Shown piece after piece: positions 2,911 through 47,642 of a DNA stretch of 64,000 nt (position 1 is the stretch's first letter; every line of letters begins with the position of its first letter). The notes below the pieces were generated by a model, which did no database searches, had not been told where the DNA came from, and worked only from the letters and a program-made list of their open reading frames with translations. A program made the translations under genes and the position numbers. The stretch is taken from assembly GCA_016235045.1 (NCBI GenBank), contig JACRME010000004.1, positions 124,001 to 188,000 on the forward strand, given 5' to 3'. The DNA comes from Nitrosomonadales bacterium. GTDB lineage: Bacteria > Pseudomonadota > Gammaproteobacteria > Burkholderiales > Gallionellaceae.

Positions 2911-3168
<258 letters not shown>

Positions 3169-3318
3169 TCAGTCCTCCTTTGCATTGACCATACTCTGTT
3201 GCCGGCTGAACCGGCCCAGACGGCAAAATTTTGAATTTTTAGCGACCGACGCAGGTAGCGATGCGCAGACATTTGCGCCTGACATCCTTAAGTACAAGAC
3301 CCGGGCTCCCCGCACTCC

Positions 3319-3350
3319 AAAAAAAAACTGTGGCGCATTGCGCCACAGTT
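3319..3350 (-). terminator. Intrinsic terminator of the leftward small RNA
   Basis: A perfect 11-bp stem (AACTGTGGCGC paired with GCGCCACAGTT, 3-base loop) is followed on the minus strand by an uninterrupted T run (3325-3319). It points leftward, but no protein gene reads into it from the right: the only coding neighbour, the EBP, runs rightward from 3565. It therefore ends a non-coding transcript. Confidence 0.85.
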
Positions 3351-3423
3351 CGAAGCTGACGGACGGGAGCGTCCAGTCAGGGAGAATTGAACCTGCGTTA
3401 CTTCAATCTGTCCGTAAAGCTTA
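3319..3423 (-). ncRNA. Predicted sigma54-dependent small regulatory RNA, about 105 nt
   Basis: Predicted from promoter, terminator and fold, not from homology. Transcription from the -24/-12 element at 3449-3434 would start near 3423 and end in the T run at 3319. The transcript shows three stem-loops: ATTGAA/TTCAAT (3407-3402 with 3391-3386, 10-base loop); a 10-bp stem with one bulged U and the loop CUCC (3380-3356); and the terminator stem (3350-3326). A single-stranded CUCCC lies between the first two. Two CUCC/CUCCC stretches complementary to GGAG ribosome sites suggest a translation-repressing antisense RNA. No convincing ORF lies inside. The layout beside an EBP parallels Vibrio qrr1 beside luxO. 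Confidence 0.65.
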
Positions 3424-3433
3424 TTTTATTAAT

Positions 3434-3449
3434 AGCAATCACTGTGCCA
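3434..3449 (-). promoter_or_regulatory. Sigma54 (-24/-12) promoter for the small RNA
   Basis: On the minus strand TGGCAC (3449-3444) and TTGCT (3438-3434) are separated by 5 bases, which gives the canonical GG-N10-GC spacing of RpoN promoters. It faces away from the EBP gene and 11 bases upstream of the predicted RNA start. Match to the consensus TGGCACG-N4-TTGCW is exact except for the base after TGGCAC. Confidence 0.75.
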
Positions 3450-3533
3450 CTTCTCTCGTGTTTTGCTAATTTTGATTTCTATCAGCCGGATACTGTCTGT
3501 CGGCCGGGATGAAACAGGAAATAAAGGTTGATA

Positions 3534-3555
3534 GTTACGCCACAAATGACATAAC
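3534..3555. promoter_or_regulatory. Candidate upstream activator site (inverted repeat)
   Basis: GTTACGCCA and TGACATAAC form an imperfect inverted repeat (two mismatches) around CAAA. It lies about 90 bases upstream of the small-RNA sigma54 promoter, a normal distance for an EBP site, and only 9 bases before the EBP start codon, so the same site could give autoregulation. The assignment is an inference from position. Confidence 0.3.
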
Positions 3556-3564
3556 ATAACTGCC

Positions 3565-4908
3565 ATGACCGCCACAAATAACAGCGTACCTGTCCAGCCC
3601 GAAATCCCCGCAAACTTGCTCAACTTGCTCGACAGCTTCCCCGATCCCAAGATTTTGCTTGATGGGCAATATCGAATCATTGCTGCCAACGCGGCCTACC
3701 AGCGGGAATTCGGTCCTCAACGGAAAATCGAAGGAAAGTTCTGTTATGAACTCTCCCATCACTACGACAAGCCCTGCGACCAGGTTGGGGAAAATTGCCC
3801 GTTGCGGGACTCAATCGAAAGCGGGGAACCCAACCGCGTCCTGCACGTACATCACACCTCGTCCGGCAGGGAACATGTGGAAGTGGAGGTAGTGCCCGTC
3901 AAAGACGAAACAGGAACCACGATCTATTTCATGGAAACGATGCACTCCCTGCGCCGCGCCCGGGATGGCGCGCGCGACAGGGAAATGGTTGGATACTCGC
4001 GCCCGTTCAACCGCATGCTCGAGCTCGCAAAACGAGTCGCCGTTCGGGAGAGCTCAGTACTGCTTCTAGGGGAGTCCGGCACGGGCAAGGAACTGGTTGC
4101 CCATGCCATCCATGACATGAGTCCAAGAGCGTCCGCGCCGTTCGTGGCGGTGGAATGCTCCGGACTCACGGAAACACTATTTGAAAGTGAAATGTTCGGT
4201 TATGAAAAAGGGGCTTTTACCGGCGCCGTGGGTCGCAAGATCGGGTTAGTGGAGGCGGTGTGCGGCGGCACCCTGTTTCTGGACGAGGTGGGCGACATTC
4301 CCCTGTCGCTTCAGGTCAAGTTGTTGCGCTTGATGGAGGCCGGGACTTACCGCCGCATCGGCGGTCTGGAGCCGCTGCGCGCCGATTTCCGCCTGGTTGC
4401 CGCAACCCACCGGAATCTGGCGGAAATGGTGCAGCAAGGCACTTTCCGCCAGGATTTGTTTTTCCGCATCAATGTCTTCCCCATCCAGTTGCCGCCGTTG
4501 CGCGAGCGTACGGAAGACTTGCCAATGCTGATTACCAGCCTGCTTTCGCGTCTGGAACCGGGTCGAAAAATCACGCTCAGCGAAGAAGCCCTGGATACGC
4601 TGAAGCACCACGTCTTCCCCGGCAACGTGCGGGAACTGCGCAACATCCTGGAACGCGCGCTGATCATGGTGGACGGCAACACCATCCAGCCCCAGCACCT
4701 TTTTCTGGACACCATGAAAAACGGCAAGGCGATTTCGGAAACGGCCCCCCTGGAAGAAATAGCCCCATTGGACAGCCTGGAAAGGCGCTACCTGACCTGG
4801 GCTGCAAATCACTTCCAGGGCGACCGCAAAACCCTGGCAGATAAACTGGGCATCAGCGAGCGCACTTTGTACCGGAAACTCAAGAGTCTGGATTCAAACC
4901 CGGCCTGA
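3565..4908 (+). CDS. Sigma54-dependent transcriptional activator with Cys-containing PAS sensor
   Basis: The 447-residue enhancer-binding protein has three parts. Residues about 16-130 form a PAS domain with C60, H65/H66, C71 and C78 (FCYEL...PCDQVGENCPL), a Cys/His pattern that could hold a redox-active pair or metal. Residues about 140-375 form the AAA+ core with Walker A GESGTGKE (169-176), the sigma54 contact loop GAFTGA (216-221) and Walker B GGTLFLDE (234-241). A Fis-type helix-turn-helix (LADKLGISERTLYRKL) ends the protein. There is no receiver domain, so the signal is probably sensed directly by PAS. Its nearest target is the divergent sigma54 promoter at 3434-3449. Confidence 0.9.
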   Translation: MTATNNSVPVQPEIPANLLNLLDSFPDPKILLDGQYRIIAANAAYQREFGPQRKIEGKFCYELSHHYDKPCDQVGENCPLRDSIESGEPNRVLHVHHTSSGREHVEVEVVPVKDETGTTIYFMETMHSLRRARDGARDREMVGYSRPFNRMLELAKRVAVRESSVLLLGESGTGKELVAHAIHDMSPRASAPFVAVECSGLTETLFESEMFGYEKGAFTGAVGRKIGLVEAVCGGTLFLDEVGDIPLSLQVKLLRLMEAGTYRRIGGLEPLRADFRLVAATHRNLAEMVQQGTFRQDLFFRINVFPIQLPPLRERTEDLPMLITSLLSRLEPGRKITLSEEALDTLKHHVFPGNVRELRNILERALIMVDGNTIQPQHLFLDTMKNGKAISETAPLEEIAPLDSLERRYLTWAANHFQGDRKTLADKLGISERTLYRKLKSLDSNPA

Positions 4909-4970: not shown

Positions 4971-6752
4971 TTATTCTCCCGTCAGGCTCCCGGTATCGCC
5001 GCGGCCTTCGATTATATCGACCAAACGATTCACGAAATACGGCGCGACACGACCCGCAAAAGCCGAACCTGGATGAGAATCCGAACTGTCGGCATTTTCA
5101 TCGAGCAGGTAATTGGTTCCCCCCGTTTCAAGTTCGTAAAAATCCCAGACATAGATATTGTCGCCGGACTCATCCCAAGTGCCTTTCACCCAATCAAAAA
5201 AGATTCTGGCACGCGCGGCCTTCGCCACTGTCGTATCGGCGGCCCGCAGGGCGGCTCCGGTCCAGACGATAAATTTCTTGTCCGGAAACTGGAGCATTCT
5301 CGTTTTGAGCGCAGCATACTGAAGGTAGTAGTTCTCCAAAGTCTGGCCTCCCGAGCTCACATCCGGCGTTCCGGAATCCGGTTCAATGTCGCTTACCGGG
5401 AAACAATGCTTGAACACGATGACGTCGTAATTTTGCGTTAATGCTTCCAAATCGAACTGTCCGGACGTATCAGTGGTATTTACCCACAGGTTCCAGTAAT
5501 CATATGGGTTGTTGCTTCCCAAAGGATAGGTATTGGACGGGTACCAAAGCTCATCTATCACGTAATTTGTTCCATGAGCCGTATTGTAGGTATCCAACCC
5601 ACCTGGAATGGTCTGTATTCCATCTCCCTCCCAAATATAGAAACCGGTACTGTGATGAAGAAGGAGAATGCGCACAGTTCCTGCCGGAGGAGCCGCCCGC
5701 GTAGTGAACCTCCATACGCGATTGTTTGCCATGGCATTGCCTGCCGCATCCCTGACTCCCGTAGTCACGGTGGCAGTGTATTGAGTTGAATATGCGAGCG
5801 CGCTTGACGGGGTCAAGGTTGCGGTGGTGCCACTGTATGCGACCGTGCCTGTCACGCCGTTATTCAGACTGAAGGTTGCAGTGGTCACTGTCGATGCATT
5901 CATGTTCTCGCTAAAGGTGGCGCTCACCGCTGTGTTTACCGCAACGCCGGTTGCGTTATTTGCAGGGTTTGTCGCCGTGATGGTCGGCGGGGTGCTATCC
6001 GGTGCGGTGCCGGTCGTGAATGTCCACACGCGGTTGCTTGCCATGGCATTTCCTGCCGCATCCCTGACTCCCGTGGTCACGGTGGCGGTATACGGGGTTG
6101 AATAGGCAAGCGCGCTTGACGGGGTAAAGGTCGCCGTGGTGCCGTTGTAGGCGACCGTGCCTGGCACGCTGGTCGCACCGTTTTTCAAGGTAACGTTGCT
6201 GGTGGTCAAAGTCGACGCGTTCATGTTCTCGCTGAAGGTGGCGGTGACCGCCGCATTTACGGCAACTCCGGTGGCGTTATTTGCCGGGCTTGTCGCCGTG
6301 ACGGTGGGAGCAGTGGTGTCGGCGGCTGTACCGGTTGTGAACGACCACGCGTAGGGGCTTTCCATCGCATTTCCGGCAGCGTCCCTGACACCTGTGGTTA
6401 TTGTGGCTGTGTACGTTGTCGAATTAGCCAGATTTCCTGAAGGAGTAAAAGTGGCGGTCGTGCCGGTGACGGCGACCGAACCTGTCACACCGTTATTCAA
6501 GGTAAAAGTGGCTGATGAAACAGTGGATGCAGTCATCGCCTCGCTGAAAGTGGCGGTGACAGCACCATTTATGGCAAAGGCGGTGTCGCTTGCCGCCGGA
6601 CTGGTCGATGTCACTGTAGGCGCAATTAAATCTGTCGGCATTACGGGATCCGCTTTCTTTCCAACATCGCCCGCTCCGCCACCGCACCCCGACAACACCC
6701 AAGCAAATATAAAAGCAAAGACGATAAAGAATTTTGAAAAGTTGGAATTCAT
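4971..6752 (-). CDS. Lipoprotein with three Ig-like (SbsA/Big_5) repeats and SGNH-like C-terminal domain
   Basis: The 593-residue product starts with a lipoprotein signal peptide whose lipobox LSGC puts the lipidated cysteine at residue 23. ATG 6752 was chosen for this signal peptide; the frame stays open for 42 more codons upstream. Three repeats of about 105 residues follow, each with APTVT..SPA, TFSE(N/A)MNAST and YTATVTTGVRDAAGNAM. The last 215 or so residues begin ILLLHHSTGFY and end with DSSDSHPG, a D-x-x-H arrangement as in SGNH/GDSL hydrolases, so a cell-surface esterase or lyase role is possible but unproven. The gene is monocistronic and converges on the EBP gene. Confidence 0.75.
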   Translation of the reverse strand: MNSNFSKFFIVFAFIFAWVLSGCGGGAGDVGKKADPVMPTDLIAPTVTSTSPAASDTAFAINGAVTATFSEAMTASTVSSATFTLNNGVTGSVAVTGTTATFTPSGNLANSTTYTATITTGVRDAAGNAMESPYAWSFTTGTAADTTAPTVTATSPANNATGVAVNAAVTATFSENMNASTLTTSNVTLKNGATSVPGTVAYNGTTATFTPSSALAYSTPYTATVTTGVRDAAGNAMASNRVWTFTTGTAPDSTPPTITATNPANNATGVAVNTAVSATFSENMNASTVTTATFSLNNGVTGTVAYSGTTATLTPSSALAYSTQYTATVTTGVRDAAGNAMANNRVWRFTTRAAPPAGTVRILLLHHSTGFYIWEGDGIQTIPGGLDTYNTAHGTNYVIDELWYPSNTYPLGSNNPYDYWNLWVNTTDTSGQFDLEALTQNYDVIVFKHCFPVSDIEPDSGTPDVSSGGQTLENYYLQYAALKTRMLQFPDKKFIVWTGAALRAADTTVAKAARARIFFDWVKGTWDESGDNIYVWDFYELETGGTNYLLDENADSSDSHPGSAFAGRVAPYFVNRLVDIIEGRGDTGSLTGE

Positions 6753-7009
6753 TTTGCGCACCCCAATATTGTATGAAATCAAATTATTAACAGGTTTGTC
6801 GTAAAACAGGCACGGCGAAAATCCGCAGAGCGGCCTTGCCGCAGCGACTCGATTCAGACCATTCAACCACATACCCATACTTATTGACAGGTTATTGGGA
6901 CAATGACAGTCGCACGAGGTTCAAGAAAAAAGCTACAGGTCCAACTTGCAGGTGAAAACCAGAGGAAAGAAGTAGGGTATGAAAATCGCGTATCGAAGGC
7001 GACTGCTGG

Positions 7010-47072: not shown

Positions 47073-47088
47073 TGGCACGTGTTTTGCA
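47073..47088 (+). promoter_or_regulatory. Sigma54 (-24/-12) promoter of the bacteriohemerythrin gene
   Basis: TGGCACG (47073-47079), four bases, TTGCA (47084-47088): an exact match to TGGCACG-N4-TTGCW with GG-N10-GC spacing. The expected start is near 47099, leaving a leader of about 88 bases before the hemerythrin ATG. An ACTGTCG...CGAACAGT inverted repeat at about 46989-47015 could be an activator site. Confidence 0.85.
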
Positions 47089-47186
47089 ATAATCAAGCAC
47101 GTACAGTTAAAATGGTTTCTTTGACTCCCCCGCAAAGCATTAACGACGGTGGAGTCGGGATGAACCGCAATCGACAGGGTAATGCC

Positions 47187-47642
47187 ATGGCCAAGACAAT
47201 ATGGACTTCAAATCTGAACACCGGGATTGAAGCGATCGACAAACAGCACAGAAAGATTGTGGACTACATCAACCAGCTTGACGATGCGATAAGCAGCGGA
47301 AGAAAGAAGGAACTCGTCGCCAAAGTGATCGACAGTCTGGCGGACTACACCTATTCCCACTTCAAATATGAAGAAAGATTGCTGGAAGAAGTCAGTTACC
47401 CCTTCCTGAAAGCGCACAGGAATATTCACCAGATCTTTATCCGGCGCCTTGGCGAATATCAGGTGCGATTCAAGCGCGGCGAAGACATTTCCGAAGAATT
47501 GCACATGATGATGTTCAACTGGTTGTTCGGCCATATCAAGCACGACGATATGGACTATGTAGCAGCCGTAGGCAATCTGTCGCTCCCGGATGATGCGGCG
47601 GAAGAAAACAGAAAAGGCTTCTTCGGCAAACTTTTCGGCTGA
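47187..47642 (+). CDS. Bacteriohemerythrin
   Basis: 151-residue non-heme diiron oxygen-binding protein. With ATG 47187 the ligands fall at H21, H58, E62, H77, H81, H116 and D121, almost the numbering of Methylococcus McHr, which supports this start (AGGG 7 bases before); ATG 47160 with GGAG is the alternative. It is a single-domain soluble form and could deliver or buffer oxygen. It is the only gene in the window with a perfect sigma54 promoter directly in front. An ATCCGG hairpin at 47662-47679 follows. Confidence 0.92.
   Translation: MAKTIWTSNLNTGIEAIDKQHRKIVDYINQLDDAISSGRKKELVAKVIDSLADYTYSHFKYEERLLEEVSYPFLKAHRNIHQIFIRRLGEYQVRFKRGEDISEELHMMMFNWLFGHIKHDDMDYVAAVGNLSLPDDAAEENRKGFFGKLFG

Follow-up and report, generated by a model that had tools for sequence, protein, structure and literature searches.

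A conserved, putative sigma54-driven small RNA encoded divergently from a FisR-type activator gene in a Nitrosomonadales bacterium

What does a sigma54 promoter serve when it lies divergent from an activator gene and is followed by about a hundred nucleotides of seemingly non-coding DNA: a small regulatory RNA, or the leader of the gene beyond? And which signal would switch it on? These questions are raised by a minus-strand segment of the window (the whole 64,000-nucleotide stretch of DNA analysed here) in which a sigma54 promoter, a putative sRNA stretch and a terminator are flanked by the genes for a FisR-type activator and a YfhL-type ferredoxin (Table 1). An earlier note had read the segment as a sigma54 promoter, a stretch of about 105 nt that folds into three stem-loops and has no ORF, a terminator with an 11-bp stem and a T run, and a divergent gene for a sigma54 enhancer-binding protein (EBP) starting 116 bases from the promoter. 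All of these elements were recovered. The promoter matches the sigma54 pattern with 0 mismatches, and the activator ATG at 3565 lies 116 bases from the promoter edge at 3449. With a predicted start at 3423 and a T run ending at 3319, the RNA would measure 105 nt; among ORFs of at least 60 aa, the single one across this stretch is a 130-aa frame on the opposite strand (3077-3469, plus). The 105 nt fold into three stem-loops with -41.2 kcal/mol, a value that 0 of 200 shuffles equalled, and the terminator stem comprises 12 pairs by scan.

Table 1. Coordinates of the features at the locus (positions in the window)
Feature	Position	Strand	Basis
YfhL-family 4Fe-4S dicluster ferredoxin gene, downstream of sRNA	2911..3165	-	NCBIfam NF033683, 137 bits, cut-off 86
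Putative small RNA, ~105 nt, predicted start 3423	3319..3423	-	fold z -4.89; second own-genome copy; homologs; no Rfam family at gathering threshold
Intrinsic terminator with T run	3319..3351	-	12-pair stem by scan at 3351-3325
Hairpin 2, CUGAC..GUCAG around GGACG-CUCC-CGUCC	3356..3380	-	folds; 88% of cells paired
CUCCC motif 2, hairpin 2 loop	3365..3369	-	accessible by partition function; CTCCC here in 16/25 copies
CUCCC motif 1, anti-Shine-Dalgarno-like seed, linker before hairpin 2	3380..3384	-	CTCNCTG in 25/25 copies
Sigma54 -24/-12 promoter TGGCACAGTGATTGCT	3434..3449	-	exact match; TRGCAY-N5-TTGC in 25/25 copies
Putative upstream activator (FisR) site ATGGCAGTTATGTTATGTCATTTGTGGCG, overlapping activator gene start	3538..3566	-	conserved 29-mer
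FisR-type sigma54 activator, Cys60/71/78	3565..4908	+	Pfam PAS_4, AAA+ (Sigma54_activat), HTH_8

Searches of related genomes showed that the RNA is not confined to this locus. A 161-nt DNA query gave matches in 9 of the 61 genomes searched, one of them (L017, in G018) covering only the promoter, and a second sRNA copy was found in the same genome as the window (G000:C30:181022-181136). Covariance model R1, built from 16 sequences of the transcript alone and having no promoter columns, matched 17 of 34 genomes of the genus, 19 of 158 of the family (21 copies), 4 of 22 of a second family, 11 of 399 of the order and 1 of 369 of the class, the last being the own genome. Three of the order-level matches, in G039, G199 and G248, were weak (E 6e-4 to 9e-4) and were dropped because the CTCNCTG core is absent from them. 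In all, two families contribute 25 sRNA copies from 23 genomes, counted on draft genomes whose completeness varies.

The best-conserved parts of the RNA are the linker CUCNCUG (25 of 25 copies), hairpin 2 and the terminator. Over the 25 copies, 94.8% of the pair cells are standard; the terminator helix is 99.6% paired and has three pairs with two-sided changes, and covariation is confined to it, hairpin 2 having no such changes in these copies. The 5′ hairpin was assessed by single-sequence folding. Two CUCC/CUCCC segments had been singled out in the earlier note as possible masks of ribosome sites, one as unpaired and one as lying in a hairpin loop. The loop CUCCC is indeed clearly accessible, whereas the first CUCCC turns out to be largely paired in the window copy. 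The loop motif is missing from 9 of the 25 copies, and in L154 and L161 a later CTCCC sits behind hairpin 2 instead of in its loop. By partition function, and as a prediction only, accessible C-rich tetramers are present in 24 of 25 copies against an expectation of 16.7 from shuffling of the 5′ part, L163 being the copy without one. As is typical of Hfq-dependent sRNAs, the intrinsic terminator has a long U tail (7-10 T in 23 of 25 copies, 5 in L162 and L163), and the genome encodes Hfq.

The promoter is part of the conserved unit. TRGCAY-N5-TTGC begins 46-67 bases ahead of the CTCNCTG core in all 25 copies. Because the copies used to train R1 had come from promoter-bearing queries or patterns, independent evidence for the promoter is provided by the nine copies outside the training set, and the -24/-12 element is present in 9 of these 9. 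The hexamers alone are weak evidence, since the window holds 8 sites with at most one mismatch to the sigma54 pattern (2 of them exact) against 3.67 expected. Over the 3.15-Mb genome, exact sites number 12 against 1 for the reversed control, and the second copy in this genome has an identical 16-base promoter. The other exact match in the window (TGGCACGTGTTTTGCA, 47073-47088, plus) lies at the start of a bacteriohemerythrin-like ORF (47079-47642, GTG start, the true start probably being later; name read from the translation).

Further upstream, the 16 family copies that adjoin an activator gene have in common a 29-base motif (ATGGCAG...TATGCCATTTATGGC) located 86-89 bases before the -24 element. 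A matrix built from these 16 copies, with 2000 mononucleotide shuffles per copy as control, recovers the motif in all five family copies that do not adjoin an activator gene, 77-86 bases before -24, and each of the five (scores 18.8 to 35.3) exceeds all 2000 shuffles. In the second family the motif beats all shuffles in 3 of 4 copies, the score of the fourth being reached by 11 of 2000; it lies 89-121 bases before -24 and scores lower than in the first family. Seven of the 10 exact sigma54 sites that the own genome has besides the sRNA copies (L001, L002, L004-L008; 3 kb each) were scanned for the motif and gave best scores of -4.9 to 9.8, the value of 9.8 at L008 being higher than the 8.5 at L153 in the second family. 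A 22-mer of the element occurs in the own genome with 0 mismatches only at the two sRNA copies, from which the pattern was drawn, and once with two mismatches; at up to three mismatches the total of 28 equals that of the reversed control (28). The sharing of this candidate element, also by copies away from an activator gene, implies control in trans. The two own-genome copies share promoter and upstream element, so that a single activator should act on them both.

The distribution of the RNA follows that of the activator. A homolog of the activator (E<=1e-100) is found in 31 of the 158 family genomes: in 19 of the 19 that have the sRNA and in 12 of the 139 that do not (Fisher p 9e-17, uncorrected for kinship). 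Conversely, none of the 127 family genomes without such a homolog has the sRNA; one of the 127, the incomplete G018, holds, at a contig end, part of a 59% homolog, which fails the E cut-off. In each of the 16 family genomes whose ortholog reaches 75% identity or more, the sRNA lies divergently beside the activator gene; promoter, core and terminator are thus conserved next to EBP orthologs, on which the earlier note had staked its proposal. In the second family an ortholog was observed beside L153 and L154, and at L156 and L161 the adjoining ortholog was read only from similar upstream sequence. Three genomes (G012, G023 and G029) have no activator gene beside the RNA and keep RNA, promoter and upstream element; all three retain a 55-56% FisR homolog elsewhere, and a remnant of the activator N-terminus is legible by eye in the upstream DNA of L145 and L148.

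Whether the RNA acts in its own right has to be weighed against the gene that follows it. In 18 of 25 copies the YfhL-type ferredoxin gene follows on the same strand, its distance from the T run being 44-153 nt, and the sigma54/FisR promoter might therefore own a ferredoxin (-NifX-like-DUF302) operon, the 105 nt being its 5′ leader with a terminator that limits read-through, and free RNA a by-product or a part of attenuation. Gaps of 44-46 nt in three genomes leave little space for a second promoter. Own copy 2 (L020:3166-6372) precedes genes for a hypothetical protein, a NifX-like protein (PF02579), a DUF302 protein and a multihaem cytochrome (PF11783), and in one or another relative the first three of these come after the ferredoxin gene. 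The ferredoxin operon seems to be split in the own genome, both halves retaining promoter and RNA, a situation that also fits a leader. Against a leader, 7 of the 25 copies have no intact ferredoxin gene (own copy 2, both G025 copies and the four second-family copies); at one of the G025 copies, L031, the ferredoxin frame has decayed, as judged by eye, and promoter and RNA look intact. Furthermore, no antiterminator was evident by eye in the 11 folds examined, and the C-rich core is conserved separately from the terminator. A mere terminator would need no seed, and the retention of one counts for action in trans, as do the encoded Hfq and the long U tail of 23 of the 25 copies. On balance we regard a leader or attenuator as a doubtful, if serious, explanation and trans-acting repression as the probable one. 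Both may hold, in the form of an sRNA gene with partial read-through into the downstream gene.

The second question concerns the signal. As had been noticed before, the EBP carries a cysteine-bearing PAS domain (PAS_4, with Cys60, Cys71 and Cys78) where a receiver domain might be expected, and no receiver is present; the protein is not of an undescribed kind but a recognisable FisR-type (sulfane sulfur) activator. It has the N-terminal regulatory domain, the sigma54 AAA+ domain and the Fis-type HTH of FisR proteins, and since the family is a described one, the inducing signal can be predicted by name. Every one of the 17 sequences aligned, a subset of the homologs found, has the three cysteines, and the PAS part gave no match in a solved-structure search. 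FisR of Cupriavidus pinatubonensis shares with the activator three regulatory-domain cysteines, a spacing of 11 between the first two, the AAA+ and Fis HTH domains and a divergent target. It differs in that the divergent target here is a putative small RNA, whereas FisR is associated with a divergent promoter for sulfide-oxidation genes, and in that both zero-mismatch upstream sites in the own genome belong to sRNA copies. The C60-C71 spacing equals that of the C53-C64 pair of the Cupriavidus protein, which is reported to form a tetrasulfide upon exposure to sulfane sulfur (PMC8614764; see also PMC12170894); FisR is described with three conserved cysteines (PMC9774590). The FisR of Acinetobacter baumannii is reported to lack the regulatory cysteines and to respond to sulfide all the same (PMC7315123), so that cysteine conservation is no proof of mechanism.

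The genes facing FisR homologs in other bacteria, named by reading translations, bear on the same point. The closest named homologs among the matches listed are four, at 50-54% identity, and suggest that the host is probably a betaproteobacterium; the activator is 50% identical to the homolog of Burkholderia latens. PDO-, SQR- or TauE-like ORFs lie opposite the homologs in L054 (Oxalobacteraceae) and L055 (B. latens), cytochrome-bd- and SQR-like ORFs opposite that in L052 (Acidovorax) and a NifX-like ORF opposite that in L053 (Accumulibacter); L056 falls in one group with L052, L054 and L055, with PDO-, SQR- or cyd-like ORFs opposite. A divergent sigma54 site was found by pattern in L054 and L056 only, and not in L052, L053 or L055. 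It is unlikely that kinship to FisR misleads on the input and that the activator senses oxygen, nitric oxide or other thiol reagents. The link to sulfane sulfur consists of homology and three cysteines, and some homologs face genes as varied as cytochrome-bd-like and TDT-transporter-like ORFs; on the other hand, the cysteines are invariant throughout the alignment, and PDO- or SQR-like ORFs lie opposite several of the homologs. Other homologs, 42-56% identical (L036, L037, L039, L038, L040, L041), face MBL persulfide-dioxygenase-like, cydX/cydA-like, TDT-transporter-like and SQR-like ORFs, again by reading. L038 and L041 have a divergent exact sigma54 site; L036, L037 and L039 have near matches, and L040 has none. 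L039 also has an exact site about 140 bases behind the activator gene.

The accessible C-rich segments point to ribosome-binding sites as candidate partners of the RNA. The pattern CAGGGAG-N(3-10)-ATG occurs at 62 sites in the own genome against 8 in the reversed control; since GGGAG is an ordinary ribosome site, the 62 are mostly what any good ribosome site would yield. Of 30 loci inspected, 19 begin an ORF of 70 aa or more, and 6 of those were run against Pfam. Genes for a 4Fe-4S dicluster protein (L192), a NifX-like protein (L204), a CBS protein (L194) and a metallo-beta-lactamase-fold protein (L202) are target leads only. The same holds for the window's MgtC-family gene, which runs from 2141; its ribosome site CAGGGAGAACGGTAATG (2126-2142, plus), one of the 62, forms a 9-base perfect complement to the sRNA segment UUCUCCCUG. 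Computed duplex energies were implausibly low and were excluded from target assessment. The same C-rich single-stranded motifs, together with the second copy, would also suit an RNA that, rather than pairing with messenger ribosome sites, titrates Hfq, a translational regulator or another sRNA, and CrcZ sets a precedent for a sigma54-driven titrating RNA; yet neither repeated A-rich Hfq motifs nor loop GGA motifs were seen by eye, and we hold such a sponge to be very improbable. Finally, a chance assembly of promoter-, hairpin- and terminator-like features without a gene is refuted by conservation, namely by the second copy, the homologs, the promoter and the upstream element.

In vibrios, the LuxO-Qrr system combines sigma54-driven sRNAs with an adjoining activator gene, several copies being under one activator. 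The present locus resembles it in that a putative sigma54-driven sRNA adjoins its activator gene and in that more than one copy would answer to one activator. The likeness to Qrr/LuxO on which the earlier note had drawn stands as an analogy of layout and does not extend to kinship: the protein has no receiver domain and scores 240.5 bits with the NCBIfam LuxO model, whose cut-off is 800, and the window has 0 Rfam matches at gathering thresholds and no Qrr in a permissive scan. CrcZ and GlmY likewise have a sigma54 promoter and a dedicated activator, in their case a two-component response regulator answering other signals; Rfam scans revealed no sequence kinship between them and the window RNA.

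A resemblance in sequence to C/U-rich RNAs of Betaproteobacteria stays below threshold. Membership in RF02278 (Betaproteobacteria toxic small RNA; S17/bdhR1) and RF02837 (anti-hemB) was rejected: RF02837 scores 23.4 of the required 49.5 bits in L012 and 18.7 in own copy 2, RF02278 scores 15.4 of 50 in L012, and neither is among the matches of the window copy up to E 5. In a ten-locus scan the RF02837 match of L012 was the only one to these families. This sub-threshold likeness lies in the CUCC-type seed and the terminator; what S17, bdhR1 and anti-hemB have in common with the RNA described here is a C/U-rich seed (of the CCUCCCUG type in the present case), a hairpin and a terminator, and the single-stranded C/U-rich seed complementary to ribosome sites that marks this group is found here by prediction. 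Bordetella S17 (S17S) is reported to repress translation by means of a single-stranded site that complements ribosome sites, and to have a sigmaA promoter, unlike the sigma54 promoter here (PMC11722255). For Burkholderia NcS25, pairing with a Shine-Dalgarno site is predicted (PMC10117139).

Taken as a whole, these data favour, with a probability of roughly 0.6, a FisR/sigma54-induced and probably Hfq-dependent sRNA that would block ribosome sites when sulfane sulfur rises. Judging by homology and by the published chemistry of FisR, sulfane sulfur would modify the PAS-domain cysteines of the activator. The modified protein may then bind the conserved ATGGCA..TGCCAT element and allow sigma54 polymerase to start at 3423, a single activator presumably switching on both own-genome copies. 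The predicted product is an sRNA of about 105 nt with a strong terminator and a U tail, most likely working with Hfq, whose C-rich linker and loop (CCUCCCUG, CUCCC) would pair with ribosome-binding sites and turn selected messages down. The ferredoxin gene is probably expressed as well, by the part of transcription that runs past the terminator.

Neither FisR nor a sigma54-driven sRNA encoded next to its activator (Qrr/LuxO) is new in itself. An sRNA under FisR was not found among the matches listed in full-text literature searches, whose coverage left subscription journals mostly outside, and the sulfane-sulfur sensors in the literature examined switch protein genes. We give even odds to the wider proposal that in this lineage the dedicated output of a FisR-family sensor is a family of anti-Shine-Dalgarno sRNAs, which would silence messages beside the induction of enzymes, and that the RNA unit can outlive the loss of the neighbouring sensor through a related FisR acting in trans. 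If true, the pairing of a FisR-type sensor with a conserved sRNA would give sulfur homeostasis a post-transcriptional branch and would bring a new input signal to the few sigma54-driven sRNAs, and bacteria with the locus would probably answer sulfur stress by regulatory RNA. The locus is experimentally tractable, since it offers a defined promoter, activator, candidate binding site and RNA.

Two observations concern neighbouring sequences. Downstream of the activator gene, the window contains a lipoprotein-like ORF with repeated Ig-like domains, recognised by eye (4971-6878, minus). In G018 (L017:1501-1523), an NAD-epimerase-like ORF, named by reading, is preceded by TGGCACAGTCATTGCTATTAATCG, a promoter that differs little from the one of the sRNA, and the RNA is absent there.
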